Below, one piece after another: positions 9,001 through 62,500 of a stretch of 64,000 bases of DNA. The translations under genes were made by a program, and so were the position numbers. The stretch comes from Planctomycetota bacterium (GTDB lineage: Bacteria; Planctomycetota; Planctomycetia; Pirellulales; Pirellulaceae): the NCBI GenBank assembly GCA_014381825.1, contig JACNKX010000149.1, positions 62,001 through 126,000 on the forward strand. The letters are read 5' to 3'. The first letter of the stretch is position 1. The number at the start of each line of letters is the position of its first letter. The notes beneath the pieces are model-generated. The model ran no database searches. It was not told the DNA's origin and saw only the letters and a list, made by a program, of their open reading frames with translations.

Positions 9001-12000
9001 TAGGTCGCGCTCCCCAGCCGTTCTCGAAGGTCGTTAACAACACGATCTTCGGTAACAACGGTACGGCCTCGTCGTTCCCAGAAGCGAATGTCGAACCGAA
9101 CGATACGCTCTTTAACGCGATCGATACACGACAGGGAACGCAGCGCACGCCAGAGAGCTATATCGCCTCCGGCCGCATTGATGATTCTGTTAACTTTCGT
9201 GAAAACTCAGAGCAAGACGTCGACTTCTATCAGTTCGAGTTGCATATCGGCGACCGTGTCACGATCGATGTGGATGCAAACACGATCGGCAGCGGTGTGG
9301 ACGCGATCCTCCGCCTCTTTGATTCAGTGGGCGAGGAACTTGCCGTTAACTTCAACGCAGCCGCACCAGGGGAGGCGGGAGTTGGAAATGATCCGTTCCT
9401 CGACTTCACGGCTACGGAAAACGGCACGTACTACGCCGCGGTTAGTAGCTTTGGAAATGATCAATACAGCCCGTTAAGTCTGGCAGATCGTGTCGCTGGC
9501 GGTTCAACGGGAATTTATGATATCGAGATTAACGTACGAACGCCGCGGACGTTTATCGTCGAGTTACAACACACGGGCAGTCCGGGGGTCAGCACGGCAT
9601 CTGGCACATTGACGATCGAGGATGTTGCGGGCAACGTCGCAACCGTTCAGGTTGGTACTGCCGCGCGTCATCCGGAGGTGGCGGTCAATCTCGCTGCCTC
9701 GATAAACGGCGCCGGCAGCCTTAGTAATCGACAGGATCTTCCAAATGGGGCCTTTGGCGTTGCCAATCCGCTGCAACGCGTGACCGCCGAAGCGTTTGGT
9801 TCGATCTCACAGGATCGATTTGGGACGGATCGTGACACAGGAGCCCCGCGAACGAATGCGGAACGCTATGTGGTCATTCGTAACGCGGTCGACGTTGCCG
9901 AAACGGGCTCTGGGTTCCGTGTAATTGGCTCCGCGTCCGGCACGCCGTTCAATAATATTGACGATTTGTTAGTGGAACGCGGCATTCTCGTGTCTGAACA
10001 AGCGACTCCAACTCTCCTAAATAACATCGTCGCAAACACACAGGTCGGAATTCAACAGGCGCAATTCATCGCAGACAGTCGCGGACCGGCCGACGATGTC
10101 GGAGCCATCGGTGGTCTGGTAGTTGGTGGAACGCTCTATCAAAACAATGAGACACAAGATTCGAATCTACCTCTGACGGTGCAGGACTTTAATGAATCCT
10201 TGGCCGGTAGCGAACCGCTATTCGTTAACGCTGCTGCTGGCGATTTCCTGCCGGCCCCTTTTTCTTTTGCCATCGATAGTGCGATCGATTCTCTCATCGA
10301 GCGCAACGAATTCGAGTCAATTAAGGACGCCGTGGGACTAGCCCTATCCCCGGTCTTGGCTCCTGATATCGACGGGACGGGACAGCTGCGTGTTGATGAC
10401 CCAGAGCAGTCGACTCCGCAAGGATTCGGTGGTCAGGTGTTCAAAGATCGTGGTGCCCTTGATCGAGCGGACTTCGTCGGACCCTCCGTGACGCTTGTGA
10501 ATCCGCAAGACAACGATTCGCAGGGCATCGACATCGATCCATCTTTGTCGATTGTTCAACTGGACTCGGGAGTCTACTCCAACTTTTCATTGCAAATTGT
10601 AGACGGCTTTGAAGCGGCTGACCCGTTTCCTGGTATTGGGGTAAATGACGAGACGCTGGAGGGTCGCATCGTTCCGATCGGCGAAGAAGGACTGCAACTC
10701 GACGTCACAGGGCCAGCGATAACTCTGTTCCAAAACGGTGTCTTCCTCCGCGAAGGGATCGATTACACCTACCGCTTCAACACGACAAGTAACACCATTG
10801 TCTTGACGCCGCTCTCCGGTATCTGGCCCAATGACAAAGTTTACGAAATCAGCGTTAATAATCGCGATCGTTTTGTCATCGACGCTGCGGGTGGCCGTGA
10901 TCTCGATGATACATCGGCGTTTAAGATTACCAACGACTTGGGCGACACCGCTACTTTTGAATTTGACAAGGGCTTCAGTCTGACAGTCGCCAAGACACTC
11001 GGCTTGCAGGTTCCGGCGAGTGGCGCGAGCGCCAACGGAATCGTCGATGGTCAGCAGTTTACGATCAACGACGGTTCGCTGGGCATCAACACGCCAGTGA
11101 TTTTTGAGTTCGATCAGAATAATAATTGGTCCGGGAATGCTCGCCGTATCGCGTTCCCAGCGGGTGGTACTGCCGACGAAATCGCCGATGCGATCGTGAG
11201 TGCTCTCGCGAACGCACATTTGCCGGCGTTGGATGCTCAAGGCCAACCGCTCGCCATCCAACCAGAAGTTCTATCAATTCCGCTTTTGCCACGAAATTTA
11301 GGCAGCGGACTGGTCCACGTCGGAGCAACCGACGCTCACCGTGTGGACGTCGGCTCTTCCGCGCTGACATCGACCGTTGCGAAGACCGTCTTGCGAGTCC
11401 CCCAAGGCCCGCAGCTGGGAACACCCGCGGTCCAAGATGGCGAAACATTCTTCGTTGATCATGCTGGTCAACTTTCCGTTTTCGAATACGAACAAGCCTC
11501 TCGCACTGCCGGGTTCATTGCTTCGACCGATACCATGATCACAGTCGTCGACCAATCCGCTTTCCCGGCAAATGCTCCGTTCGATATTCGAATTGAAGGC
11601 GAGCAGCTACGAGTCACTCAAATCTTCCCATCTGGTGGTAACGCCGCAAGCTTTACTGTGCAACGTGGTGTGAACGGAACGACAGCCGCCGCACATCTAG
11701 ATCAGGTACTCGTAACTAATGCGGTACTTCCAGCGAATGCGATTTTGTTTGCAAATTCTGATTCGCGAGAGACAATCGCTACGGCTACGGCGAATGCGTT
11801 GTCGCTCCCACTGTCGAATGGATTTCAGCTCGGTTTGAATGCGTTCCACGTGGGCAGCGGGATTATTGAATTGAGTGGAATCACGGATCACATCTTCAAT
11901 GTGGCGAGTTCAGGGCTTGTTGCTACGATCGGGCAAGTACCAGTTGGGATCACTGTTCCAGAAGCCGGCGCCGCCGCGATCATGGACAATGAGACGTTCA

Positions 12001-15000
12001 CGGTCAGCAATGGGGCACAGACCTTTATCTTTGAGCTAAGTAATGATGGTCTGGCGTCGACGGTCGCCGGAAGCGTCGTGATTCCGTTCGGGCCGCTCGA
12101 TTCTGCCGACGCGATCGCCAACACCATCGCCGGCTTCCTGAACACAACTGCCGATCCAAACGGTGATACTTTGGCGATGGCCGCCATTCCCGTCGGAAAT
12201 GGTGTAATCCGGCTCGACGCTCAACCAAATCACACAATCGATGTCAGCGGCACAATCTTGACGCGGCAGGTCGTGAGCGGCGGCGTTCGCGATGGCGAGG
12301 TCATCACGTTGCGAGAGAATGCGACGGCAACGACGATCGAATTCAATGTCCTTGGCGATACAAATTTCAGTACGACGTCTCGCAACTTTGTCGTCGAATT
12401 CTCGGCCAGTGACACGCATCTCGATTTGGCACAAAGGATAACCGACAAGATCGTCGAAGTAGATATCGGGTTGGCTCCGAAGAATGCGGGTGCAGGAGAG
12501 ATAAATCTGGGAGGCGTTCCGGGTATTCACCAGTTGCGGGTCTCGCAGCCATCCAGCTTTACGGTCGAGGGTGAGCCTGGGGTCAGTCCTTCGACGACGT
12601 TGATTCTCCCTTCTCAGCCTGGAATTCAAGTCCGTCCGGAAGGCGCCCTTGCCTTTGCTGATCGCGACACGTTCACGATCTCAAACGGATTCGTCACTGC
12701 CGTATTTGAGATCGACAAAGATGGTGTATTCGACGACCTCAATGGCGACATGTTGCCAGATAATTTCGTTGTCGCACTTAATCCTGGCGATACGCAGCAG
12801 AATGCCGTCGACGCAATTTTGGTCGCATTAAGCGCCGCGAATATTCGCTTCAATCTCGGACTCGCGCCTGTCGATCGGGGGAGTGGAGTGATTGCACTCA
12901 ACGCACCGGTCGATGTGGTGTTGTTTACGAATGGTCTGACGGCACAGAATCTACTGACAAGCTTAGTCGACGGCGATTCGTTTACGATCAACGACGGTAC
13001 TAGAACGGTCACATTTGAGTTTGAAGACCTTAGCCCCGTCAGCGGGACGCCGAATGGTATCGCCGGCTCGAATGTGGCGATTACCTTTGTCGATGGTTCG
13101 TTTGTTGAAACTGTGTCTAATGCGATGCAAGCCGCCATCGCTGGGGCGAACATTGGCGTCAATCCGACGCTCCCCAACCCCGGCAGCGGTCGCGTCGAGC
13201 TTGGCGACTCGACCCGTCATCTCACAGACGTTTCAAATAGCAGCCTGACGATTGATGGTTTCGCTGGCGGTGCAATTGGAATCGAAGTTAGAACAACGTT
13301 CACCGAAGCCGAAGTGGCTGCCGCGATAATCGCAGGGGTCAACGGAGCGTCGAGTCGGGTGGAAGGTGTCGATGCAAGCTTGCGCGGCGGTTCTACCGTG
13401 TTCGTGGATATCTCGGACGTAAACGGCCAACCTGCCAATTTTGTTAGTGGTTTTGCTGCGATCAACGGGATTGATAATTTCTTCCTCAGCGCGGTAAAGG
13501 ATTTGGCTGGTAACTCGTTGAAAGGAAATCAGTCGACAGACGAGACGGTCTTTACCATCCTGTTGCCTGGTGTCGGGCTTGACTTTGGAGACGCCCCCGA
13601 TCCATTTGCTGGTTCGGGTAACTATCCAACGTTGTTCGATAGCAACGGCGCTCGCCATGTGATCGGGGAAAACTCGTTGCAGCTTGGCAGCGGTATCGAC
13701 GCCGAACTGGATGGTCAGCAGACGCTTGCCGCTGACGGCGATGAGTCGGACCATTCGATTCAGCTGTTGGATTCAAACATCAGTTTGCTTGGGCTTCCGC
13801 CGTTTTCCGTGCAGGTTCCAGCGGCAGGTGGTGCGGCACTCACGCCCGGCGAGTCGTTCACGATCGGGCGTCGTGGTCGATCGTTCGTCACGTTCACGTT
13901 TGTACTGGGTACTGCTGCCAATTCGAGCCAAATAGGCTATGGCATTACAGATACGGCGGATGAGATCGCAGATAAGATCGTTACTGCAGTCGAAGGACAG
14001 CAGTCGTCTTTGGCGCTGCGGCCTTCAAGCCTTGGTAACGGTTTGGTCGCCCTGGGCGGGACTTCTGGTTTGAATATTGGAGTGGCAAACAGCAGCTTCA
14101 CGCTTACCGGCGAACCGTTGCGACAATTGATTCTGCCTCTGCGGCTGGTCGTTAGCGATGCCGCCTCAATTTCAGACGGTGACCAGTTTGTTGTGTCAGA
14201 CGGTGTTGGGCTGAACAGAATCTATGAGTTTGACAAGAATGCGAGCGGCGTTCCATCGGGAGTCGTTCCAATCAATTTGACTGGGTCCGAAGATGCCGAT
14301 GCCGTCGCAGCGGTCGTCATCGCAGCCGTTACCGAATTGTCGGGTGTCGCCAATGCCGGGATCGTTACTTTCTCGGGTCTTGGAGAGGGGCACACGATTG
14401 ATGTCTCGGGTGCCGCGACACTGGCCGTTGATCGATCGCTGGCTTCCGGCGAGTCGTTCATTATCGACGACGGACTTAACCCCGCGGTCGTCTTCGAGGT
14501 GAGTGTCGATGGTGCGGCGGTTACCGCTGGCAATGTGTCGATCAGTATCTCGAGTAGCTCGACAGACGCCGAGGTAATCGAGGCAATTCGCTCGATCGTC
14601 GAAAGCCAGCAATCGCAATTGACCGGTTTGACACCGCTAGCCCCGAACGATCACACGGTCACTCTGGCTCACCATCGAAGCGATTCGCTCGATCTGTCCA
14701 CGAGTTCACTCGCACATGCGAATCTGGCACCCGTGTCTTTACAGACGACTGGAGCTGGCTTGGCAATCGAGATTCCTTCCGTCGCACGGCTACAGATGCC
14801 CGCGAATGGTGGAGTCGGGATCACGGATAGCCAGTTCTTCACCATCAACGATGGAATTAACCCGGTTTCGCGGTTCGAGTTTGCAGATGATGGAGCGTTC
14901 AGCGGCATCTTACTGAGTTTCAATGCTTCGTTGTCGACGCAAAATTTGGTTGACCTCGTGCTGACGTCTCTCCAAACGGAGATCGCGGCAGGGCGTTTGA

Positions 15001-22973: not shown

Positions 22974-25900
22974 CCCGAACTGATCGCGATACGTCCGGAC
23001 GAGGCAGCGCTGCTGCAGGAAGGCGACACGTTGGACACCGCGCCTCGCGAGTTCAACTTGCTGTTCAAGGGCGGTGCGGATTTGAAGGAGTCGACGATCG
23101 CGAACAGCGTTCGTCTTGTTCGTAGCGGTGGTGACGGATCGTTTACCAATGGCAATGAAGTGACCGTCTCGCTTGGCTTTCTCGGGCTGAACGATCCTGG
23201 CGATACGGATAATTCGAATCTTCAAAGCATTGTGATGTGTCCGGCCAGTTCAGCTTCACATAACGTGACCGATCCTTCGTCCGCTTTTCCCGATGATACC
23301 TATCAGATCGAGATCGATGGGCTTGGATTCTCGCCGCTGACAAATCGAGCCGATGAGGACTTTTCGATCGCGGGTACTCCGGCTAACTTCTCGCAAACGT
23401 TTCGCCTTGCGCGCGGAGCGCAGGTCGTCGCTGTCGTTCCGCAGCCAGTCAGCCGCAATTCCCACAGCGTTACCTTCAACGGGACGGTAACGGGTGGCAA
23501 GTTCACCTTGAGTTTGCAAGGTAAATCAACTTTGCCAATCATTGCGACCGGCGGCGATGTGCGCAAAGACATCGAAGATCGGCTAAACGAGCTGCCAAGC
23601 GTTCAGCCTGGGGACATCGTGGTCACGGGTCCGGCAGCGGGCGGACCCTGGTTAATCGAATTGCAAGGTCAGTACGCAGGTGAAGAGCCGGTTATGGATG
23701 CGGACGATTCCGGCTTGACCGGCATCAATACGAGCATCAGCGTCGTTCGCGAAGACGACCTGAGACAAGCCGACAATCAGATTATTGTCTACTTCAGCGA
23801 TGATGAACTTGATCCAGTAGACGCCATTGATCCAAAGTTTTACCGATTGATTGATACGTCGGTGACCGAGGATGGGATAGATGACGTTCTCTCACTTCCG
23901 ACGAATGTCACATACGACCCTGTCGACAATACGGCAGCGCTGACCTTTGCCGCGATTCCCGACGGCACTTATCGACTGGACGTTGGTGAAAGTGACGAGA
24001 CGAACAACCTGACTGACGATGCGATTAATGTTGGGACGTTGTTTGATTCGACGAATTTCTCCTATGTCGGCTATGTTGGGGATGGGGATGGGACCAGCAG
24101 TGATGGCGCGGACGCCGACCAGTATCAAGTGCGACTGGTCAATGGCACCTCGCTCGTCGTTACGGCAACTCCTCATGACCCAAGTCTGAATTTGGTTGTT
24201 CGACTGCTCGACAAGGATGGTGCGGAAGTTGCGAACGCGTCGAGCATGGTAGCTGGCCAAATTGAATCGTTTACGACGGGTCCGATTACGGTCGCGACGC
24301 CGGATGACGAGGTGCACTTCATCGAAGTGACGAGCGATTCTGGTCTGACGGTCGGCTCTTATTTATTGGAAGCATCGGTTGCCAACACGATTGACGCCAG
24401 TGATACAAACACGACGTTTGCCGATTCCACGGTTTTGGGAACTCTTGGTGCCGGTGGTGTCATGCATTCATCGGAAATCGACGAACAGACGCACGTCATG
24501 ATGCCTCTGTTCCCAGGTGGTGAAGATGAACCGGGACATCGTTTGATTCAAGCAGAACAACATCTTCCAAGTTACGGATTGGGACCTGTCGCACCTGATC
24601 CAATCCTTCTGCGGTCGTACAGTTTCCCGGCGACCGTTTCCAGTTCTGCGGGCACGTTTCAGAATTTCATTTCCGAAACGGAAAAGCAAGTCGTCCGTGA
24701 AATCTTTGAGATTTATGGAACGCAAGCTGGCGTACAATTTCGGGAAGTGACCGCCGGCGGAACTCGGATCATGAAGGGGGATCTGAAAGCCTCCACGCCG
24801 ACCGATACGAGTGAGCCCGGTGGAGTCGCGGGACGCGGTGGCTCGGGCTTGGTCGTTCTCGATTTTACAGATTTCCCAGGCTCGACGAACACGTTCGGGA
24901 GTGGCTTCTTTACGACGATGTTCCACGAAATCGGGCACTCACTCGGGTTAGGCCATTCGTACGATGTTCCCTCGGTCCAAGGCAATGGTGTACCCAACGA
25001 AGTCTACCCGGGCGATCACGACATCGTTCACCTACAGCGAGTGTTGCGACCCGACAGTACCGACATTGATCTCTACCAGTTTTCGATCGTTGCACCCGGA
25101 TACTTCACGGCGGAAACGGTTGCTGAACGAATGGGCGTCAACCCTGCCGATGCTCGGCCTACTAGCAACCTGGATAGCGCTTTGACTCTGTATCGAGAGA
25201 ATGCCGATGGTTCTCGCGATGTTGTTGCTCGTAACGACAACTACTTCAGCAATGATTCGTTCATCGGACTAGATCTGCCTACCGGAACCTACTACATCGG
25301 CGTCAGTAGCACGGGGAACGTCGATTATGATCCGAGCATCGTCGATAGTGGATTCGGCGGTCGGTCGCAGGGACTCTACGATTTGCTACTGAACGTCACG
25401 CCCGCACCGAATTCGACGCTCGCAGATTTAGATGCGACGGCCTTTGACGGTGACGCGGACGGCGCGCCGGGTGGCGGCTTTAGTTTTTGGTTTGAGAGCA
25501 GTCAGCACACCATCTTCGTCGACAAAGCCAACGATCAACGTGCGTTCACCGTTGATGGCGATGGGGAACTAACGGGAACGACCGGCGTTCCCACGACAGG
25601 GCCTTACGATACGATCTCGTTTGCGATGCAGCAGGCCGCAAGTCGGATCATTGTGCCAACGGATCGCGCTGGAAACGTGACGATCGCAGATGGCGATACG
25701 TTTACGATCGACGATGGCTTCTTGCCGCCGGTGACCTTCGAATTTGACCAGGTCGCGCGTCTCAGTGCGTTCATCAATCCTCTGGCGACGACCTTAACCG
25801 TCTCGAGTCTAGCTCCGTTCCCAACCACGACGCCCTTTGATATTCAAATCGACAGTGAAGAACTTACTGTCACGGCAGTCAATACTGGCACAAACACGTT

Positions 25901-28900
25901 TACAGTGACGCGGGGCGTGAATGCGACAATACAAGCCAGTCATGCCGGAAACGTCACCGTTCGAAACGTGCCAGTCGTCGCCAATCCGATCGATGTGTTT
26001 CCTGGCGACGATCCGACCGCATACGGAGTGGCAATTGAGGCCGCTGTCAACGCAATTTTTGGTGCCGGACCGGCAACTGCCACTGTTGACGTAGTGACGT
26101 TCAGCGGCATTGTGAATCTTGACGTGAGTGGCTCGAACGCCTTGCTTCACGTGCCTAATCTTGTACGCGTGGTAGGCAATTCCGGTCAGGATGGAGACAT
26201 CAGAACTCTTGCCGACGCACAGCCCTATCTAATCGGATTGAGCAATTCTGGATTCCCGCTGGACGACGGCGAAACGATCGAAGTGCCGCAGGGCGTTACG
26301 GCCATGTTCGATGCCGGAACTTTGCTGAAACTTCGAAAGGGAAGTATCGACGCCGGAACTTCATCGGTACTGGTCGATCGCCAGGGAGCAGCGATCCAGA
26401 TCCTTGGTACCCCAGAGAACAAGGTCTTTTTCCGGTCGTTCAGGAATGACTCGGTGGGTGGCAACAGCGATGGTGTCGGGCCGTCAGCACAGCCTGGGGA
26501 TTTTGGCGGTGTTGTCTTCCGCGATGACTCGGATCTTGAGCAGAGTGGGGTGTTCTTGAACTATGTAAACCACGCCGACATCAACAACGGTGGCGGTAAA
26601 GTCTTCGTAGGCTCCGTGGAACAGGTGTTTACGCCGATTCACATGATCGTTGCGCGGCCAACGGTGTCGTTCAATACGATTACCAACAGTGCCGACGCAT
26701 CAATGTCGGCGAACCCAAACAGCTTCGACGATGACGGCGGTCGCCTTGGTCCGGACATTTACGGAAACTATCTGGCCAACAATAGCGTAAACGGGCTGTT
26801 CGTTCGTATTGAGACGCAGCTGGGGACACCGGTCGAGAAACTTGACGTTACGGCGCGATTCGATGACGACGATATCACACATGTTATCACGGAGAACCTG
26901 CAGATAACCGGAAGCGCTGGCGGTCCGTTGAACACGACGGCCAGGCTGAGCGGTCGATTGCATGTCGATCCAGGCGTGGTCGTCAAATTAGGCAATTCTC
27001 GAATTGAACTTGAACGTGGTGCGTCCAATCTCATTGCCGAAGGTACCGATCAGCGGGAAGTGATCATTACGTCGATCGCTGATGACCGATTCGGTGGCAG
27101 CGGAACGTTCGATACGAATAATGATGGCATTAGCAGCGGTTCTCCTGGGGACTGGGGCGGCTTGATGTTTAATCATGTTTCGAGCGGTAGCATCGACAAC
27201 GCGCTGATTGCGTTTGGCGGCGGACAGGTCCCGATCGAAGGTGGTTTCGATCAATTCAACACCATCGAAGTGCATCAAGCTCGTCTTCGACTGACCAACA
27301 GTGTTCTTGAGGAGAATGCGAGCGGCGCTGCGACATCGGGTGGCGACACGGCGCGCAACGGTCGCGGCGGCAATTCGAATTCAACAATTCATGTGAGCGG
27401 CTCTCAGCCGATCATCGTGAACAACATCATTCGCGACAACGCGGGCGGCGTCATCAGTATCAACGCGAATGCGTTACAGTCCCGCAACGTACAAGACTAC
27501 GGTCGCTCGACCGGCGAACTCGACGCGTTCGCTGCATTGGGCGACAACAGCGGACCGTTAGTTCGCCTGAATCGTCTCGAAAACAATACACCTAATGCGA
27601 TGACCGTGCGTGGTTCGGAACTGACCACCGATACGGTTTGGGACGACACGGATATCGTGCACGTTCTTCGAGGCGAAGTAATTGCGGAAAACCTCCACAC
27701 CTTTGGAGGCATACGGTTGCAAAGCAGTAATTCCGAGAGCCTTGTCGTAAAGTTGCAGGATCAGATCGTGGCGGATACGAGCATCGGAGGCACGATCCAG
27801 TTCAGCGATAATGGTGCCCTGCCGGATACGATCACCGACCCGTTGAATCGATTGGGTGTCTTTTCCGCTGGCGGATTCGTTGTTGTGAATGGTTCGTTGT
27901 TGAACAATGGTATCTACAAGATCGCTAGCGTAACTCCGGGCACGATAACCTTAGAGATTTCGCAATCGCTTGTTACCGAGGCCCTGACCGGTGGCGGAAC
28001 ATTGGGTCTTTCGGCTGGATTCACTGCGACCGGAACTCCCTTGGATATCGATGACCGCATTGGCGGGACGGTCCAAGTCGTTGGAGCCATTGGACACCCT
28101 GTGGTTCTAACATCGGTGTTTGACGATTCGGTGGGTGCTGGATTTACGCCAAGCGGTGCCGTCTTGCTAGATACGAATAATGATGGCCTTGACGTCGACG
28201 CGAATGGCACGGACGACATTACAGGTGCCACCGTAGCTGGCGTGCCGGGCGCTGGTGATTGGCGTGGCTTGTTCTTGGACAAGTACAGCAATGACCGCAA
28301 TGTCCGAGTTGCCGACGAAGATGAAAGTGCTTTCACAGATGGCGTCGATGCGAATCCAACCCCAATCGTTGCCCAGTCGCTAGGCACGTTAGCCCCGAAC
28401 GAGAAGAGTGGCGACGAGAACAGTTCCTTAGGATTTGAGGTGTATGGCTTCATCAGCCTCGACGATACGAAAGACATTGACGTCTACAGCTTCACGGGCA
28501 CGCCGGGCACTGAAATTTGGTTAGACATTGACAACACATCACCTGGCTTGGACGCCGTCGTCGAACTCGTCAATATCTCTGGGACGGTTCTAGCGCGATC
28601 AATCACGAACAGCGACTTTTCAGGGACGATCGCCCAGCACGCGCATGAAGACGCCTTGTTGGTTGGCGACTTCTATACGACGAATTATCGCGACCCAAGT
28701 GTGCGATTGGTTCTGCCGGGGACGGGAACAACTGGTACTTATTTTGTGCGCGTACGTAGTAACCCGGAGCCGGATAATTTGATCACTGCCCTCGATGGTG
28801 GACTGACGAGCGGGGCGTATCAGTTACAGATCCGATTGAAGCAAGTTGACGAGGTACCGGGTTCCACGGTGCGTTACGCAGATATCCGGTATGCCACGAC

Positions 28901-40900: not shown

Positions 40901-43900
40901 GCCTAGGTTCGAGCTTGAGGTGCAGGACAACGGATCGGGTTTCGCCGATGTCGCGACGGGCGAATCGTTTATTTTCAATGATGGCAGTAATCCTGCGGTT
41001 ACCATCACGTTTGAGCGAGCTGCGTTACTTAGCGGAGCCGTTGCCGCACTTGATGTCACGATTCCGGTTGCCGATGCAACTGGCTACCCCGGTGGATCAT
41101 TCAACATCCGAATTGGGGACGAAGAGTTGACGGTTACCGCTGTCACTTTGGTTGCGCCAGGGAATCCCGCAGCCGGCGCGACCTTGAATGTGGACCGCGG
41201 AGTTAACGGAACGTCGGCGGCGAGCCATGCAAGCGGCGACTTGGTTCGCACTTCGGATCTTCTTGAGGATGTGGTTCTCTTTACGGCGTCCGACACTCCC
41301 GGCGATGTCGGCGATTCGATCGTCACCGCGATCCAACGTGTATTGCCAGAAACGTCCGTTCAGAACACGGCGTCCACTGAAGTGGTCGTGATCGAGGGTA
41401 CATTAACCAGCGCCACGATGAATGCTTCCTCTAGCAACTTGATCCAACGCGGTCCCGCCGCAAATGGTGTGGACTTCATCGCTGACGGGTCGACTTTCAC
41501 AATCGACGACGGACTTAACCTTGCCGTGACTTTCGAGTTCGACGTGGCAGGATCGGCGCCAGTCACGGTTGGCAATATCGCGATTCCGCTGGTTCCAACT
41601 GGAAACATCGACGAAATTGGCGCCGCGATGGTGGCTGCGATCAATCCAGAGATCCTGACCGCGGACCTCTCTGCTCTTGATCCGGAATATCTTCTCCGCG
41701 GTGAACCAGTTGGGGCGTCTTATCTTGGTAGCGGCTTGGTGCAAATCGCTAATCGCCCAGAGCATTCCGTTTCCGTAGCCGGCGGTACGATTGGGCTGGG
41801 CTTGGCTCCGCAGTTGCCGGTTCGCGTTCAGACGGTAGGTGCGGGGCTTGCAGTGCAAGTGCCACAAACCCAGGCCGTCGCCCTGCCAACGATTGGCGGT
41901 GCTGGAATTAGCGATGGTGCGAGTTTCACGATCGATGACAGTGTCAATTTCCCTGTGACTTTTGAATTCAATACGGTTCCGCTCGGTAGCGTCACGTTTG
42001 GCAATCGCGCAATCAATGCGTCGGACAATCCGAGTTTGGCGGTCTTGAACGCGCGAGTCCTCGCCGCGATCAACGCCGAAATCGCCACGGGTAACTTGCT
42101 GTCGACGATTCTTCCTCAGATTACGACGAGTGACCAGATTCAAATTCAAGGCGCGGATACAAGTTTGGTGGTGGCCGGTGCCGGAGTAGCTGGAAGAGGT
42201 CCGGTCAACGAACGCGAGCAATTTACGGTTGCCGATGGACAGGGTGGCAGCGTTACTTTTGAGTTTGACAACGGCGGTGCCGCACCACTCGCGCCCCTTG
42301 TTGCGGTTGATTTTGTTGAAGGCGATACTCCCAATCAGATCGCCGCGAAGATCCACGCCACGATTTCGGGAGAGGTCGGCACGACTCTTGCCATCGGTAC
42401 TATCGATCCTGATCCCGCGAACACGTTATTCGCCGAGGCTGTGATTGAATTGGGCGAGTCGCTCGATACGGTTACGTTTATCAATGGCGGTGGCGCTCAA
42501 ATTGCGGCCATGTTGGCGATCACCAGTCCAGGTGCATCCGGTGGTGTTAAGGACGGCGAGACATTTACGATCCAGCGCGGCACGGAGATTCTGACGTTCG
42601 AGTTTGATCGAAATAATTCGCTTGACGATCCGAACCATATTCGCGTTGATATTGGCGATCTGACCGGCGTGGTAGTCCCCTCAGACATCACCTCGATTGC
42701 AACGACAGATTTCGATATTGCGACGGCGATCGAAACGGCTGTTAACAGTGTTGTCGCGACGGTTTCAGCGCGAGCGTTCGTGGATGCATCCGGGGTCGCC
42801 GTCGTTGATTTGCAAGGTGATGATGAAGATGGCATCACGATCGGCAAAATCTTCCTGCCAACCGAGGCGGACGCCAGTTACACAATTCCGCTAGAAATCC
42901 TTGCTTCCTCTAGCGGCTTTGTCGATGCATGGATTGACTTCAATCGGAACGGGTTGTTCTCCGACGAGGAAAAACTTGTCGGTAACGCCGTATCACTGCC
43001 CGATAGTTCCGTGTTGGCGGCGGACACCCTGACACCGACGGCGTTAACCGCAGACCTTCTAGCACCCGGAATTACGGCGTTGACTGCTTTTATTGGCAGC
43101 GCGGCCACGACTGTTCCGGTAGTCGACGCTTCCCAGTTCGCAGCGCAGACGTTGCCGTTTGATATTCTTGTTGACACCGAGCAGATGCAAGTCACTGCGA
43201 TCAACGGAAACGATCTAACCGTGATGCGCGCCGTCAATGGAACGAATGCACGCTTCCACTTTGGTAACGCTCAAGTGCGTACGCTGGCTATCACTTCGAT
43301 ACCAGTTGCGGACGGTTCTCAATTTGCCGCCTACCCAGTTCCGTTTGATATTCTTATTGACGCTGAACAGATGCAAGTCACTGCAGTCACCGGAAACGTT
43401 TTGACGGTGACACGCGCGGTTAATGGCACGACGGAAGCCGGCCACCTTACTGATGCCGTCGTGCAATTCGCGAACGATATGCTCCTGATTGCGGATGGGT
43501 CTCAATTCGCCATGTATCCGCTGCCGTTTGATATTCTCGTCGATGCCGAACAGATGCAGGTCAATTCAGTCAGCGGAAACATTCTGACGGTGACACGTGG
43601 AGTTAACGGCACGTCGGAAGCCAACCACTTGACCAGTGCCGTCGTGCAGCCGCTGGCAAATGGTTCGATTCCTGTCACGGCTGGCTTGAACCAGTTCAGC
43701 ATCGATCCCGATGCGTACACTTCGACTGTCGCTTTTATTCCCGGTGAGACGTATGCGCGCTTCCGCATCAGCTCGATTGGTGGCCTCTTCCCGACTGGGC
43801 TTGGCATTGGAGGCGAGGTCGAAGATTATGCAGTCCGGATCTTACCAAACACCGCACCCATCGTAGCGAACGATCTGGGTACGATCGCGTTGCCCGAAGA

Positions 43901-46900
43901 CACAAACATCGACGCTCGTCCGGGCGTCGACTTCTTCATCAATCTGAATGACGTTGACGACGACCCCGCGGTCGATTTCGGATTCGATGGCAATTTTATA
44001 GATCCGCTGTTTGATGACTTGGATATCAACAACGGTCGAGAGGATCGCCTCAATTATCTAGTTCTCAGCAACAGCAACCCGACATTGCTCACCGTCAACC
44101 TGATCGGAACTCAGCTGTTGTTCGACATTCACGAACACCAAAACAATAACCTCGGTGGCGAAGCTGCGATCGTTGTTGAAGCGACCGATCACGCAGGGCT
44201 TACAACGACTGCAACATTGACCTTGTCGTTAACGCCGATCAATGACGTTCCGTTGACGACGTCGACGAACAGCACGTTCTCGCTTGATGAAGGTGCCAAT
44301 GATGGTTCCGGTGATTTAGCCGAAGTGATGCTGGCGATCAGGACGACAACCAAGAGTGCGGTGAGCGTATCTGATACGAGTGTGACGGTCGACAGCACTG
44401 CCAGCTTCCCCGAGACCGTTCCTTTCTACATCGGAATTGGTACCGAACAGATACGTGTTACGAAGGTCGACGGAAACGCTTTGACGGTTCAGCGCGGTGT
44501 GAATGGGACGACGGCAGCATTTCACGGCTTTGGTGTCACAGTCGTGACGTCGCCGGTCGCAGTATCTGACGTTGATGAAGACGAACTCGTAAACACGACG
44601 CTCGCACTTTCGATCAACGCGACCCAGACTACATTACAAATCACGGATGTGTCTTCCTTCCCGCCAGCGACTCCGTTTGATATCCGGATCGGCTCGGAAG
44701 ATCTGCGAGTGGTCGCACGTATCGGCAATAATGTGACTGTAGCGACTCGCACTAACGGCGTCGCTCACAGTGCCGGTGAGTTTGTCGGTCTGTTGACAAC
44801 TGGCATTGCGTTACAGACGCCACTCGATCCTGTATCGACCTTTACGCTTGCCGACGCCTCCAAGTTCCCCTCGCTTGTCCCGTTTGATATTGAGATCAAC
44901 GGCGAGCAAATGACGGTTACGGCGATCACGCCGGGTAGCCTTGGGGCAGCAGATTTTGACGTCACTCGAAGTATCAATGCCGTTTCTGGCGCTCATTCGG
45001 TGGGCGCTGTTGTAACCAACCTTCCCGGTGTCGGCAGCCTTGTCGGAGCAATTGGTGATACGTCCGTAAACCCCGACACTACGGTCGTCGTGGATGACGC
45101 ACAACGGTTCCCATCTTCGACACCATTCTTTATTCGGATCGATAGCGAAGAGATGCGGGTTGACAGTATTGCTGGCTCGACGTTTACTGTAGCTCGCGCT
45201 CAAAACGCGACCGTGGCTGCGGCTCATACGGATGCCTCGCTTGTCGAGAATCTACCCGGTGGTGCGACGCTTAGCACCGTTCTCGGTGATACGATTGAAA
45301 CGGTCGCGTTCTCCGACATCTCGGCGTTGCCTAATCTGTCTACGTTTAGAGTTCGCATCGGGGATGAGGAGTTGTTCGTGTTGTTCGTAACTCCTCTAAC
45401 TGCGCCCGCTGGTGAGTTGACTCTCGTTCGCGCTGCGAACGGCACGGCGGGGCCGATGCAGCCGGCGGGAACGCTGATGGAGCTTCCTGGTTTCACGGAA
45501 GTGCAAGTAACGGTTACTGTACCAAGCGGCGATGGTGCCGTTCGCTTGACGCCGTCGGGCAATGCCGCGGTGATTGAAAACGAGACGGGCCTCGTCACGC
45601 TGCAGGGAACGGAAGTTGACGTCAATGCAACACTTGCAACGCTAACTTACATCGTTCCGCACGCCGAGTTCAATTCGGTTAACAACGGCGGCGACGTGAT
45701 CATCGACATCGAGGCGAACGATCTCGGTAACACAGGAGTTGGCGGCCCGTTGTTGAGTTCGGATCAGCTGACCGTCGCCGTCAATCCCGTAAACGACCGG
45801 CCCGAGTTTACCGCCGGAGCCGATCAGACAGTTCTCGAAGATGCTGGTGCCCAAACAGTCACCGGTTGGGCGACGAATATCGCTCCCGGCCCGGCACTTG
45901 CGACCGACGAAGTCGGTCAGACGCTGACGTTCAGCACGACGATCACGATGCTGACTGGTGGTTTGACCTTTACCGCAGCTCCTGTAATCGATGAGGTATC
46001 CGGCAACCTTACATATACGGCAGCGGCTAATGCCAATGGTGCCGCGGAAGTCGTCGTTCAATTGATGGACGACGCTCTCGGATTAGACAAGTCGTTGCCG
46101 TTACATACGTTGACGATCACCGTCACCGCTGTGAACGACGCGCCGAGTGGTGCGAATAAGACGATCACGATGTTGGAAGATGGCACGCATGCATTCGCGG
46201 CCAGCGATTTTGGCTTTACGGATACCGTCGATAGTCCAACGCCAAACGCTTTGGCCTTCGTGCGAATTTCGACGCTTCCCGCGGACGGCGTGCTGGCGTT
46301 CAATAGCACGGCGGTTTCGGTGGGCGACGAGATAGCCGCCGCAAGCTTAGACGAACTGACGTTTGAGCCTGCATTGAATGAGTACGGTACGGGCTATGCG
46401 AACTTTAACTTCCAAGTGAGAGACGACGGAGGCACTGCAAACAGCGGTATCGATTTGGATCCGACCGCCAACACGATCACATTTAACGTGACCCTCGTGA
46501 ACGACGCCCCAGCCGGTACGGATAAAACGATTGGGATGCTGGAAGACGGCACGCACACATTTGGTGTAGCCGATTTCGGCTTCACCGATGTGGCGGATAA
46601 CCCAGCGGCAAACAGCTTGGCTTCAGTCGTTATTTCGTCGCTCCCCGCAGACGGCGTGTTGGCGTTCGATGGTACGGCGGTTTCGGTCGGCGACGAGATA
46701 GCCGCTACGAGCTTAAGCCAACTAACGTTTAAGCCTGCGTTGAATGAGTATGGAACGGGCTATACCAGTTTCGACTTCCAAGTGCGTGACGATGGCGGTA
46801 CGGCGAACAGCGGAATCAATCTCGATCCGAATGCAGACACGATTACTTTCGATGTAACGCTCGTCAACGACCCACCGGATGGTGCGGACAAGACGATTAC

Positions 46901-49900
46901 GATGTTGGAAGATGATACGTATACATTCGCGGCAAGTGACTTTGGCTTCAGCGACGCGGCAGACGATCCTGCTCCCAATGACTTTGCTTCCGTGGTGATT
47001 TCGACCCTTCCGTCAGCTGGGACGCTATTGCTTGGCGCGACTCCTGTTGTGGCTTCGGATGAGATACTCGTCACGAACGTGACTCAACTGACGTTCCAGC
47101 CTGCCCTGAACGCGTATGGGTCGTCCTATGCGAGCTTCGACTTCCAGTTGCGTGACGATGGCGGTACCTTGAACAGCGGTATCGATCTGGACCCGAATGC
47201 CGATACGATCACTTTTGATGTGACGCCCGTGAACGACGCGCCAGACGGCTCAGATTTAACAATCACGATATCGGAAGATGGCGCGCACGTATTCTCGATC
47301 AGCAACTTCGGTTTCAGCGATACGGCCGATGCTCCAATACCGAACAGTCTCGCTTCGGTTGTTATCTCGTCAGTTCCTGGGGCGGGCACTCTGGCCTTCA
47401 ATGGCAGTCCCGTGTCAGCCGGGGATGAAATCGCGGTTGCGACCTTCAATCAACTTTCATTCCAGCCCGCACTGAATGAGTACGGGACAGGCTATGCGAG
47501 CTTTGATTTCCAGGTGCGCGACGATGGTGGTACGGCGAACAACGGTATTAATCTCGATCCGAACGCCAACACGATCACGTTCGACGTTACGCTCGTCAAC
47601 GATGCTCCGGATGGCGCGGACTTGACGATCGGCATGTTGGAAGACGGTGTTCGTGCCTTCGCCTCAGCCGATTTTGGCTTCAGCGATACGGCGGACAACC
47701 CAGTTCCGAATATGCTCGCTTCGGTTGTCATCTCGTCACTGCCTGCCGCCGGCACTTTGACGTTTAACAGCACTCCGGTTGTGGTTGGAGATGAGATAAC
47801 CGTTGCGACATTGAACCAACTGACGTTCCAGCCAGCGTTGAACGAATACGGGACAGGCTATGCGAGCTTCGACTTCCAGGTGCGCGACGATGGTGGTACG
47901 GCGGATAATGGAATCGACTTGGATCCGAACCCCAATACGATCACGTTTGACGTAACGTTAGTCAACGACGCGCCAGCCGGTTCGGACTTGACGATTCCAA
48001 TGCTCGAAGATGGTATGTATACCTTTGCAGTGGGCGATTTTGGGTATAGCGATTCCGCGGATGATCCTCTGCCAAACAGTTTCGTTTCGGTTGTTATTTC
48101 GACACTGCCTGCAGCAGGCACACTGTTGCTCGGTGTTACTCCAGTTGTGGCCTTGGATGAGATCGCTGTTGCGAACTTGACCCAACTGACGTTCCAGCCA
48201 ACGTTAAACGAATATGGCGCGGATTATGCGAGCTTCGATTTCCAAGTGCGCGACGATGGCGGTACGCTGAACAATGGCATCAATCTGGATCCCAATCCAG
48301 ATACGATCACCTTTGACGTAACGCTTGTGAATGACGCTCCGGCTGGGACGGATGCGACGATCACAATCTTGGAAGATGCAACGCATACATTTGCAGCAGG
48401 CGATTTTGGTTTCGGCGACACAGACGATGATCCTGCTCCTAATAGTTTTGCCTCGGTAGTGATCTCGTCGCTCCCGTCAGAAGGCACGTTCGAGTTTGCC
48501 GGCAACCCTGTTGTGGTTGGTGATGAGATTACCGTCGCGAACTTGAATCAACTGACGTTCCAACCTGCGTTGAACGAGCATGGTCTAAGTTATGCGAGCT
48601 TTGACTTCCAGGTGCGCGATGATGGTGGTACGGCAAACAACGGTGTTGATTTGGATCCGACCGCCAACGTGCTCACTTTCGATGTAACATCCTTAAACGA
48701 TATTCCGCTGGTGAATGTGACGAACTCACAGTTCACCTTCTTCGAGGGGGCGGTTGATGGAGCTGGAGACGTCTTGCCGCAGGCGTTGGGCGGCGTTTCG
48801 GTATCCGATGTGGATGAAGACGAACTGGGCGGTACTGGCGAGTTGCTAGTAACGGTGACCATTCTGCCTGATCCGGATTCGGAAATTGATAATGGTACGG
48901 TGGCTGCGACGGCTGCCGGTACCGCGGTTGTGACGCAGCCAATGGCGACCCCCAATCTGTTGACGATTCAAGGCACCGAGGCCGACGTCAACGCGACTCT
49001 GGCGACATTGGCCTACGTGGCACCTTCCACAGGATTCAATAGCGCGATCAACAGCGAGGTGGGGAACCTCAGCGGAGACGTTTTTGTCGAAGTTCTCGTG
49101 GACGATCTTGGCAACACGGGTACCGACGGCGCGAAGATGTCGGATAGCACGCTTACTTTGACCGTCGTTCCCGTGAACGACCCACCCGAGTTCGGGCTTC
49201 TGATCGCGTCCGTGACGGTCGACGAGGGTGACTATGAAGCAGCTGGTTCGGTATTCCCGAATGCCGTTGTGGCAGGGGTTCTGCCAGGTCCTCTAGCGGC
49301 AACCGATGAAGCTGGTCAAATGGTCAACTTCATCCTTACACCAACGAATGTGTTGGGTAACTTGGCCTTCACATCGGGTCCTTCGTTTAACTTCAACTCG
49401 GGCTCTGGCGACTATGAGCTGACCTTCCAGACCGCTCCCGATACGAACGGTTCGGCTGTCATCGAAGTTGTTCTGATGGACGATGGTGGCACAGCCAATG
49501 GTGGGATGGATAAGTCAACGGTCCAGCGTTTCACGCTAACGGTCGATCCGATCAACGACGCACCTTTTGTTGTTGTTGATCCCTCGTTGCAGGACCCAAC
49601 TCGCAATGAAGACAGCGGGCTCGTCGTGATTAGCGATTGGGCATCGACCGTGCTGCCAGGGCCAGCGACTGCGACGGATGAATTGACGCAAGGGTTGACG
49701 GCGGTTGTTAATATCTCCGGAACGACGGACAGTTTGGTGACGAACGCACCAACAATTTCATTTGATCCGGCGACAGGTGATTTGACGTTTGAGGCGGATC
49801 CAAATACTTACGGTACAGCGACGTTCTCGGTTACCGTCACCGATGACGCTCTGAACGACAATCAGTCGACGATCGTGGGGCCGTTTGTCTTGACGATCTC

Positions 49901-56359: not shown

Positions 56360-56473
56360 TTGGCGAGAATTAAATCCGCCGTAAACCCTTTCTGCGCCCT
56401 GTGTTCTGCATATCCGCTCCATTCCCTTCGAAGGGTAGTCCATGGCCATGCCAAAGCACTATTCGTGGTTTAG
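56360..56473 (+). CDS. Candidate 37-codon leader ORF overlapping the gene 3 start
   Basis: A strong Shine-Dalgarno GGAGG (56348-56352) lies 7 nt before TTG at 56360. The frame then runs for 37 codons to TAG at 56471-56473: MARIKSAVNPFCALCSAYPL and so on, ending HAKALFVV. It overlaps the first 32 nt of gene 3 in another frame. The GGAGG is better than the site directly before gene 3, so ribosomes may load here and reinitiate. No homologue is recognised. It may equally be chance. Confidence 0.3.
   Translation: MARIKSAVNPFCALCSAYPLHSLRRVVHGHAKALFVV
56424..56435 (+). promoter_or_regulatory. Palindromic ribosome binding site of gene 3
   Basis: GAAGGG (56430-56435) lies 6 nt before the ATG at 56442 and selects that start over the in-frame ATG at 56448. 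It is the right half of a perfect palindrome, CCCTTCGAAGGG, which could fold into a short hairpin that hides the site. Confidence 0.45.
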
Positions 56474-59500: not shown

Positions 59501-62500
59501 TACGACCGACGCCTCGGTAACGGCTCCTACGGCTGCTGCGAAGACGACCTATTACATTGGTATCTCAAGTGCCGCGAACACAGCCTATGATCCGGTTGCA
59601 GGCGGCACGACGACCAATGCAGCGTCCCAAGGGTCGTATCTGCTGCGCGTCTCGGTGAATCGTGGAGTCACGTCGGGCGCATCGACATTGACCATGCCAA
59701 TTGCCACGGTCGGTGCGACCTCGATCGCGGTGGCAGATCGCGATCTATTCCCTGAGTCGACTCCATTTACGATCGATGTGAACGGCGAGCATATGCGAGT
59801 GACGGCTGCGACAGGCGGCACGTTTACTGTCGAACGAGGCGTCCACGATACGCTGCCCCGAGTTCATAACAATGGCGACTCGGTCACGTGGTTGGCGGAC
59901 GACAACTCGAGTTTCGACACGGCAGTCAGCCTTGGCGTGTTAGGAACTGCAACCAAATCGCTTTCGGCGCAGATCGAAGCGCAAGGCGCGTTCACGACGT
60001 TGCCAGAATATCCAGGTGGATTGGACGAAGTCGGACATCGTGGCATTGCCCCAGAGGTTCACATCGGACCAATTCCTCCGGCCTTCAATACGACGGATTT
60101 CGGTGGCTTTGCAGATGGATTCGATCTGGCCGAGACGACCGACGCCGCCGATATCCATGATGGATTGAATCTTGGACGCATCTCCGATACGAATCCGAGT
60201 ATTGCGGTTTTGGATTACAACTTTCAAGATGTGTATGGGCGCGACCTACAAGGGAACTTACTATCAAACACGATCACCGCGAATCAGAGAACGCGAACGC
60301 GCGAGATCTTTGACCTGTTCAGCCGCTATACAGGAATCCAATTTCGTGAGACGCCATCGTCCGGCGTGACCGTCGTCACCGGCGACTTGCGAGTGATCAA
60401 CGAATCGACGCCAGTGGGGCCGGGCGAGCCGTTTGGAAAGGCGGGCCGCACCAATACCGGCCTACTTGCAGCTGTCGTTGATGCGAACGAATCCGATCAC
60501 GGAAGCAGCGAGTATGGCGGTAGGTGGTTCAGAACGGCGTTCCAGATGATTGGAACGGCGCTGGGGCTCGGGCGCACGTACGATCTGACCGCGATTATGG
60601 GAGATTTGCAGGCGAATACGGTGCCGGGTGGTGTTGGTCTTTCCGGCGAACCTGTCGAGCCGGTCTTCCCCGGTGATCAAGATATCGTCCACGCGCAGTT
60701 GCTCTATCGTCCAGATAGCACGGACATCGATCTGTTTCGGTTTGACGTTGAAGAGCCGGGAACGTTTTCTGCGGAGACGATCGCGGAACGTCGCGACCGG
60801 TCGAGTTTGTTGAATACGACACTCCGCTTGTACCAAGTTCGGACGGACATGACCGGCATCGTCCTTGATGGGAACGGGAACCCGGTACGAGATCTAATCT
60901 CGCAGAATGACGACTATTTCGGAAACGATTCGTTCATCGGTTTGGATCTCGAACCTGGAACGTATTACGTCGGCGTCAGCAGCACTGGAAATGCAAACTA
61001 TGATCCCGCCGTCTCTGATACAGGTGGGGGTGGGGCGTCAGACGGTGAATACGATTTGATACTGCGATTCTCGCCGACTCCGAAGAGCAGTCTTCTCGAT
61101 AAGGCCGCTGCGGTCGAATTCCTCTCGGGTAGTGAAGCTATCGTTCCCGGCGAATTCATCGAGCTCGAAGTTGACGGCGTGGTAAAGATTTTCGAGTTTA
61201 CTACGACCGGTTCCGTTGGCGGCAATGAACCGGTTTTCCTTGCTGACACTTCGGAGCCAAGTAGTTTCGCCCAAGCGCTCGTCGACGCCATCAACGCATC
61301 CGGTCTCAATACCGTTGCAGAATCGGCGGGGCCGCGCGTGCGAATGACGGGATCACCGGCGATTTTGTCGAGCGGCGGTCTCGATTTCGCTAACGAACTG
61401 TTGGTGAGCAAGAGTCTTAGCGGTTCGCTCGGACTTCTCGAGGGCTTGCCTCTCGACGGCGATTCTGACGGAGATCCTGGTGGAAGCTTCGATTTTTGGT
61501 TCCAGTCAGGTGAGACGATCTTTGTTGACAAGTCGAATGGCGTCACATCTGCGGCTCTAGAAGGAAGCGGCACTGCCGCTGATCCTTATGACGAGATCGA
61601 TCAAGCGCTACGCGATGCAAACTTCCGCATCAACTTGCCGATCGACGTACAAGATCTGATTCAAGCCGGGGAATCATTCTCTGTTGACGACGGGATACAT
61701 GCGACCGTTACCTTTTCTTTCTCGGCTGGGACCGGTGTATCAGGAACAGACATCGGGATCGCTTCGGCGGCTTCGTCTGAGGACGTTGCCGATTTGATCG
61801 TTGTTGCGATCAACAATCAGCAGGCACTCGGGAACTTCGATGCGACGGCAAGTAAAGTCGTCAGCGGTACGCGTGTTCGAGTTGATCTAACGCCGATAAA
61901 TCCCGATTTTGCATCGCTGAATCTTGGCGGCACGGTCGCGTTATTGGCGGCTCCCAATTTGGTTCGTATTGTCGGTAATGGGAATACAGTGGAGTTCCCA
62001 GGAGATGCCCTCCCTTATCTCGTTGGTTTTGATGATGTCGGCACTCCGCTTGAAGATGGTGCAATGTTTGATGTGCCTCGCGGTGCGACAGTGATGATCG
62101 ACGAAGGTGTGCTATTCAAGTTGCAAGACACGATCATCGACGTTGGCAGCTCGACCGGCACGATCGATCGGCGTGGTGCCGCTCTTCAAGTCCTGGGTGT
62201 TCCGGATTCACCTGTCTTCTTCCGATCCTTTCATAACGATGGCATTGGGGGCGACAGCGATGCGGTTGGTCCTGCTCCCGTTCCTGGAGATTGGGGCGGG
62301 ATTGTTTTGCGAGACGATTCTGATTTCGAACAGGAAGGCATCTTTCTGAACTGGGTGAATTATGCGGACTTGAACAATGGCGGCGGCAAAGTCATCGTCG
62401 GTTCGGTTGAAGAAGTCTTCACGCCAATTCATATCGAGACGGCGCGACCGACCATTTCGTTCAATCGTGTCTCAAATAGTGCCGATGCGGCAATTTCGGC

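Follow-up and report, generated by a model that had tools for sequence, protein, structure and literature searches.

The window, a stretch of 64,000 nucleotides of Planctomycetota DNA considered at its full length, contains giant open reading frames in which one small protein module lies inside another, and the question it raises is whether such nestings record one insertion that was later copied or several insertions into the same places of a fold. Two modules are concerned: FEFD, of about 90–110 residues, and QMQ, of about 70 residues. The reading favoured here is that both have probably been copied in frame into loops of other domains, and that FEFD itself takes up whole modules at two sites, A and B, its two halves still folding together around the insert.

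Giant Genes and Their Setting

Gene 1 runs from window base 3, its frame being open further upstream; gene 2 occupies window positions 22839-56111; and gene 3 starts at 56442 and runs past the window. These three belong to a set of four consecutive giant frames of similar build, 8591, 11105, 10674 and 8985 codons long, on a 282-kb contig, which also carries a 6272-aa frame; a 9582-aa frame is found on another contig. In contig coordinates, the row is as follows:

G000:C183 59018-177736: row of four giant frames, each with FEFD and QMQ modules in differing numbers

Gene 2 has a zinc-protease motif, dockerin-like C-terminal repeats and an RRLLA-type N terminus, features which we take, together with the row of similar genes, to fit secreted or surface proteins. 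The protease motif, HEIGHSLGLGH in gene 2 (window 24921-24959), is degenerate in gene 1 (VSIGSMLGLDL, 552-593), and gene 1 therefore looks like a protease-dead relative. Gene 2 also contains, at ~45990-48600, a run of ~8 similar repeats of ~100-120 residues each (LEDG...FGF.D...NSLASVVISSLP...). Outside the window, a near-identical pair of ~900-base stretches (G000:C183 191069-191974 and 195923-196828) was flagged by repeated 24-mers.

QMQ Modules Within FEFD Modules

The FEFD profile was made from full modules, that of QMQ from every copy. For the excision test, the FEFD profile was built from 91 modules with the three nested units excluded, and all deletions of 50-108 residues were tried in steps of two, which amounts to 1,935, 1,935 and 2,025 trial cuts for the three units. 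The top-scoring deletion coincides with QMQ in all three, and once QMQ is removed the FEFD match becomes near-full, covering about positions 1-88 of 94. The nested inserts, of about 73-85 aa, score 68-75 bits against the QMQ profile. The parts of the units are listed below, with insert coordinates that are approximate and set by sequence:

11427-11492, + strand: N half of the host FEFD of gene 1 (strands 1 and 2, ending at FEYE), from profile and excision
11493-11720, + strand: QMQ nested in FEFD of gene 1 at site A; profile 75 bits, FEFD score 28 bits intact and 50 bits after excision, pLDDT 91-97
11721-11918, + strand: C half of the host FEFD of gene 1 (strand 3, helix and last strands), from profile and excision
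25680-25748, + strand: N half of the host FEFD of the first unit of gene 2, from profile and excision
25749-25967, + strand: QMQ nested in FEFD of the first unit of gene 2 at site A; FEFD score 23 bits intact and 49 bits after excision, no QMQ in the counterparts
25968-26153, + strand: C half of the host FEFD of the first unit of gene 2, from excision
40947-41015, + strand: N half of the host FEFD of the second unit of gene 2, from profile and excision
41016-41270, + strand: QMQ nested in FEFD of the second unit of gene 2 at site A; FEFD score 15 bits intact and 33 bits after excision, orthologous module of L094 without QMQ
41271-41444, + strand: C half of the host FEFD of the second unit of gene 2, from excision

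QMQ thus lies inside FEFD at each of the three places where the initial annotation had put it, and the order is always the same: the FEFD/FEYE strand, then QMQ, then the FEFD half with strand 3 and the helix. The break had been placed directly after the FEFD/FEYE strand, which is borne out and can be refined, because strand 3 stays with the helix half and the insert falls between strands 2 and 3 (site A). A fourth QMQ within FEFD is present in the 8985-aa gene (residues 5027-5081; excision 35 to 69 bits), and its natural break follows strand 3 (site B), unlike those of the three window units; the idea of a repeated target site holds in that site A is used three times, but A is not the sole site. 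The nested QMQ of the 8985-aa gene shares 65% identity with the first of the GEVED QMQ modules of gene 2, a hint that single modules are exchanged between nearby genes.

Outer Hosts of the Nested Units

The host modules are themselves enclosed. In gene 1, the array containing the QMQ unit splits an outer FEFD, whose halves score 15.6 and 19.3 bits separately and 40.4 bits when joined, and this FEFD is in turn placed in an Ig-like domain that is split in gene 1, L090, L082 and L091 and contiguous in gene 2 and several relatives. The nest of gene 1 therefore has four levels, namely QMQ in FEFD, in a split FEFD, in a split Ig-like domain; the initial annotation had described the nesting correctly and had counted three levels. 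It had also found two of the three FEFD hosts inside split domains, and here too the observation stands while the number changes, since the first unit of gene 2 also lies inside a split host (IFVDK...VRVVGN) and all three units are so placed. The outer features are as follows:

10824-10862, + strand: left edge of the split Ig-like host of gene 1, contiguous in gene 2 and several relatives
10905-10967, + strand: N half of the outer FEFD of gene 1, halves and joined scores as above
13263-13412, + strand: C half of the outer FEFD of gene 1, joined score as above
13476-13562, + strand: right edge of the split Ig-like host of gene 1, contiguous in gene 2 and several relatives
25512-25658, + strand: left part of the split host (IFVDK...) around the first gene 2 unit; FEFD-free forms of this host are named below
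26154-26210, + strand: right part of the split host (PNLVRVVGN...) of the first unit of gene 2, from comparison with relatives
43077-43664, + strand: three tandem QMQ splitting the Pfam GEVED domain of gene 2, GEVED matching only at positions 2-26 before the insert
61518-61988, + strand: IFVDK host position of gene 3 with a QMQ-free FEFD (61656-61952), which gives the first gene 2 unit its empty counterpart

The IFVDK...VRIVGN segment is found in several states: FEFD is absent in L075, G217 and the 6272-aa gene, present without QMQ in gene 3, G161, G138, G376 and G320, and present with QMQ in gene 2; in G362, the segment holds QMQ alone. GEVED, which had been named as a split host, calls for a finer distinction. 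The FEFD array splits a longer DFGDAPD...DAWIDFN unit, which has 82-114 residues when empty and 608-1111 when holding arrays and which precedes the Pfam GEVED domain (PF20009), the latter covering the C-terminal 78 residues only. PF20009 is above the Pfam cut-off and near full length in gene 1 (positions 2-77 of 78, 52.7 bits) and above the cut-off but split in gene 2 (26.5 bits, best stretch 2-26), where the three QMQ and not the FEFD array interrupt it; at the orthologous place, L094 has a single QMQ.

One Insertion Event or Several

According to the initial annotation, a single clade of nested units would point to copies of one event. In the QMQ tree, whose 58 rows and 68 columns were judged unable to decide between one event and several, the nested copies are not grouped, and the four of them need 4 changes; in the AU test, a single clade is not rejected for the three window copies (p 0.33) and is marginally rejected for all four (p 0.044). 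The hosts are more telling. Each was ranked against 316 FEFD modules with the residues next to QMQ trimmed, and for the first host of gene 2 ranks 1-4 (of about 320) are taken by its QMQ-free positional counterparts in G161, G138, G376 and G320, while for the second the top rank is the QMQ-free module of L094 at the same position. The three nested hosts rank each other only 30th to 260th of about 320.

The proposed search for occupied and empty sites proved informative for gene 2, with five QMQ-free counterparts of its first unit (gene 3 and four relatives) and one of its second (L094); the alignment of L094 with gene 2 extends to either side of this second unit, at 44% over 130 residues and 39% over 689, and L094 has no QMQ there. 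The counterpart of the gene 1 host is ambiguous, with no clear one-to-one empty match; L090 was considered for this role and downgraded, as it has two FEFD modules there against one in gene 1.

It could be supposed that the nested FEFD–QMQ unit arose once and was then copied to the three places, which would agree with the p value of 0.33, with the likeness of the insert edges (QVARLSAF, QASRTAGF and RAALLSGA) and with a z of 8.2 for the gene 2 host halves when QMQ-edge residues are included. With the edges trimmed, however, the gene 2 hosts are closest to the FEFDs of their own positions and not to each other, and the fourth QMQ sits in another loop and takes part in a clade that is marginally rejected, so that this account is unlikely as a whole and, for the two gene 2 units, strongly disfavoured by the sequence comparison. 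Because the gene 2 hosts are closest to their own QMQ-free positional counterparts, at least two separate insertions into different pre-existing modules are indicated, and the three QMQ nestings are probably separate insertions. At least two events at site A and one at site B are supported by the alignments, and a third at site A is likely. Loss of QMQ in relatives, rather than gain, is possible for the L094 pair; for the first unit of gene 2, several losses would be needed.

FEFD Modules Nested in FEFD Modules

A scan of the genome with the FEFD profile gives 86 matches, some of which are lone N halves with lone C halves further on. Mirror-image stacks of N and C halves are seen in three giant genes (of 6272, 8985 and 9582 aa), in G362 and at numerous named loci of Planctomycetota, so that the nesting of FEFD in FEFD is mostly seen outside the window, in this and other Planctomycetota. 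When such stacks are peeled from the core outwards, four levels in succession each give back a full FEFD, in the 6272-aa gene (68, 55, 50 and 47 bits) as well as in G362 (60, 55, 62 and 25 bits), which with the core makes at least five FEFD levels in two genomes. In the 8985-aa gene, QMQ lies in FEFD in FEFD (peels of 74 and then 67 bits), the second peel having joined two C halves, which leaves the depth unsure; further levels seen by eye score only 3.5-7.6 bits. FEFD-in-FEFD insertions, found at both sites, are absent from the initial annotation.

Two further arrangements were observed. In L100 (residues 2622-3532), an outer FEFD seems to enclose four FEFD-in-FEFD units side by side before closing. 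In the 6272-aa and 8985-aa genes, the last clear C halves of the stacks give way to a PPC-like stretch; possibly lying ahead of a final C half, it could represent a further type of nested domain.

The break points cluster in narrow ranges. N halves end at profile positions 21-30 or 33-40 and C halves start at 16-30 or 32-41, none beyond 41; ten other N-type matches end at 54-59 and may be divergent or differently split modules. Both loops, site A (strands 2-3) and site B (strand 3-helix), are common to QMQ and FEFD-in-FEFD inserts. The other FEFD loops (strand 1-2 and helix-strand 4) show about the same length variation as A and B, and tolerance of small indels alone therefore does not predict the two sites. 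This precision, together with the entry of two unrelated modules at the same sites, is what a dedicated mobile process targeting the DNA that encodes the FEFD strand, like a protein-level transposon, would lead one to expect. Such a process is nevertheless improbable: the nested stretches, scanned against Pfam and NCBIfam, match no intein, homing or recombinase-like family, the inserts and their flanks have similar G+C, the copies are old and diverged, and structural tolerance explains fixed sites without an enzyme, inserts in the strand 1-2 loop being hard to detect with the profile method used.

Pairing of the halves from the inside out bears on whether they belong together. Of the 54 pairs, 47 agree in break type, which none of 100,000 shuffles equals, though the shuffle figure overstates independence because many pairs come from orthologous proteins; in stacks of at least two levels, agreement is 24/30 for first-in-last-out order and 16/30 for first-in-first-out. 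Some stacks do consist of runs of N halves, then a core, then runs of C halves, as would be seen if the halves were independent repeat types (a hairpin and a helix-strand) strung in blocks, but this is very improbable, given that break types match best in mirror order, that joined halves form continuous full-length modules with one FEFD-in-FEFD unit confidently modelled, and that the QMQ-free counterparts of the hosts are intact modules. An assembly or profile artefact, conceivable where low-identity repeats mislead profiles and assemblers, can hardly be at work, as the frames stay open for thousands of codons, stacks of a similar kind are present in genomes assembled independently and the excision scans peak on the inserts.

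Identity, Predicted Structure and Distribution of the Modules

QMQ is, by sequence profile, a phage-type virion beta module. Nested and free copies match a phage virion module profile (E 7e-8, 6e-6 and 5e-17), and the tail sheath of cyanophage P-RSM6 is matched by tblastn at 3e-8; QMQ-like modules lie within this tail sheath protein (L112, 2501-2878), so that in phages, too, the module may serve as an insert or decoration. In fold, QMQ is similar to small beta barrels and to capsid and tail proteins of phages, with nothing at or below E 1e-3, the closest PDB matches being a phage VP1 capsid (E 1.5e-3) and phage GP4 (E 2.7e-3). Tandem QMQ also matches the sequences of PPR proteins in the PDB, which was put down to noise from repeats or composition.

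For FEFD, the stretches that were scanned give no significant match to Pfam, NCBIfam or PHROGs, and one phage record matches it at 1e-4. Against Flagellin_IN (PF07196), the FEFD consensus reaches 9.8 bits (E 1.2), under the 22.7-bit cut-off, and no individual member of the alignment matches this family. FEFD occurs mainly in Planctomycetota: a coarse scan (E 1e-8) finds it in 25 of 392 genomes of the phylum, and 31 of the 32 FEFD loci from a scan of named genomes belong here, most of them carrying the label Planctomycetota or that of a subgroup. The only clear exception among the named loci is L102 (8780-12862), where FEFD is found on a contig labelled Deltaproteobacteria. Distant genomes of the phylum (family f44) have one or two matches to FEFD, within proteins some 950-1850 residues long, a setting that is possibly the non-nested ancestral state.

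Of the two kinds of nest, FEFD in FEFD is the one that is modelled with confidence. For the FEFD-in-FEFD unit of L079 (site B, 15 aligned rows), AlphaFold gives a pLDDT of 89.3 and a pTM of 0.71, with strands and helices ordered as outer N half, whole inner module and outer C half; judged from secondary structure and confidence, the outer halves would be in contact. Structure prediction of a nested unit, one of the checks proposed with the initial annotation, gives for the QMQ-in-FEFD unit of gene 1 a pLDDT of 91-97 in QMQ and below 70 in the FEFD halves. Mixed MAFFT alignments of single FEFD, QMQ and nested units were misaligned and were left out of structure prediction; combining three-level with two-level rows likewise gave a wrong alignment at the C side. 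The FEFD-in-FEFD model has no significant match among solved structures; its best E against predicted phage baseplate and tail proteins is 1.5e-11.

Proposed Growth of the Giant Proteins

Split modules, two break points, mirror pairing, QMQ-free counterparts and one confident FEFD-in-FEFD model are the direct support for the favoured reading. FEFD and QMQ would be compact modules copied repeatedly and in frame into the loops of other domains in giant secreted-type proteins. FEFD would accept whole modules between strands 2 and 3 or between strand 3 and the helix, the host folding from two separated halves around the insert, and an inserted FEFD would receive QMQ or FEFD in turn, which would yield nests of the form N1 N2 N3 core C3 C2 C1. 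The DNA step may have been ordinary recombination or duplication within the cluster of giant genes, selection presumably keeping only those inserts that the host fold tolerates at A or B, and the use of the process may lie in lengthening and diversifying a surface or secreted protein.

No DNA trace of recent copying was found in the giant genes; since module copies are diverged (mostly 25-45% identical) and repeated 24-mers are few and very short, the insertion events left no trace at this level. A recursive rule may be formulated, by which FEFD is added into the loops of the innermost FEFD, QMQ uses the same entries and the DNA process favours these sites beyond what protein tolerance would give; it is doubtful. 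Copying into tolerated loops is retained, and the giant proteins seem to grow by slotting modules into two favoured loops and not only end to end.

Comparison with Known Systems

The closest known parallel is that of HABAS (SBHM) domains, which are reported to be inserted recursively, with six-level nesting, in SI3 of the RNA polymerase beta-prime subunit of cyanobacteria, and domain swapping has been described for them (PMC11515920, PMC13114784); a similar exchange of halves between neighbouring FEFD modules could also take place. Like HABAS, FEFD is a small domain inserted into copies of itself; at more than one level, FEFD modules interrupt others of their family and are interrupted in turn. 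It is set apart from HABAS/SBHM by the lack of a significant Pfam match to any family rather than by structure comparison, and a limited search of open-access text found no earlier report of the FEFD family. The systems differ in that FEFD is a different domain in giant Planctomycetota proteins, with two fixed sites and many separate nests per genome, and in that a second, unrelated module, QMQ, enters FEFD at the same sites.

Other known domains come into the comparison as relatives or hosts. QMQ is homologous by profile to phage virion beta modules (phrog_5313, phrog_12150 and domains of cyanophage tail sheaths and fibres), whereas here it is found in bacterial giant proteins, nested in FEFD, GEVED and other hosts. 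For FEFD, Flagellin_IN is the only Pfam match and FliD D2-D3 a weak fold match (E 0.13), neither being significant, and the TM-scores of 0.3-0.5 and large rmsd between the FEFD-in-FEFD model and predicted structures of phage baseplate J-like and tail sheath proteins do not imply homology. GEVED (PF20009) is a host domain in genes 1 and 2, split in gene 2 by three QMQ.

Recursive self-insertion has been described in depth for RNA polymerase; in the present proteins, it is common, deep and variable between related genes and genomes. The proteins also present an unnamed family, FEFD, of which each genome has many copies, and a module of phage virion type acting as an insert in bacterial surface-type proteins. 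Since occupied and QMQ-free positions stand side by side, one can test which of a fold's loops will take in a whole domain, and also whether very large proteins grow from the inside out.
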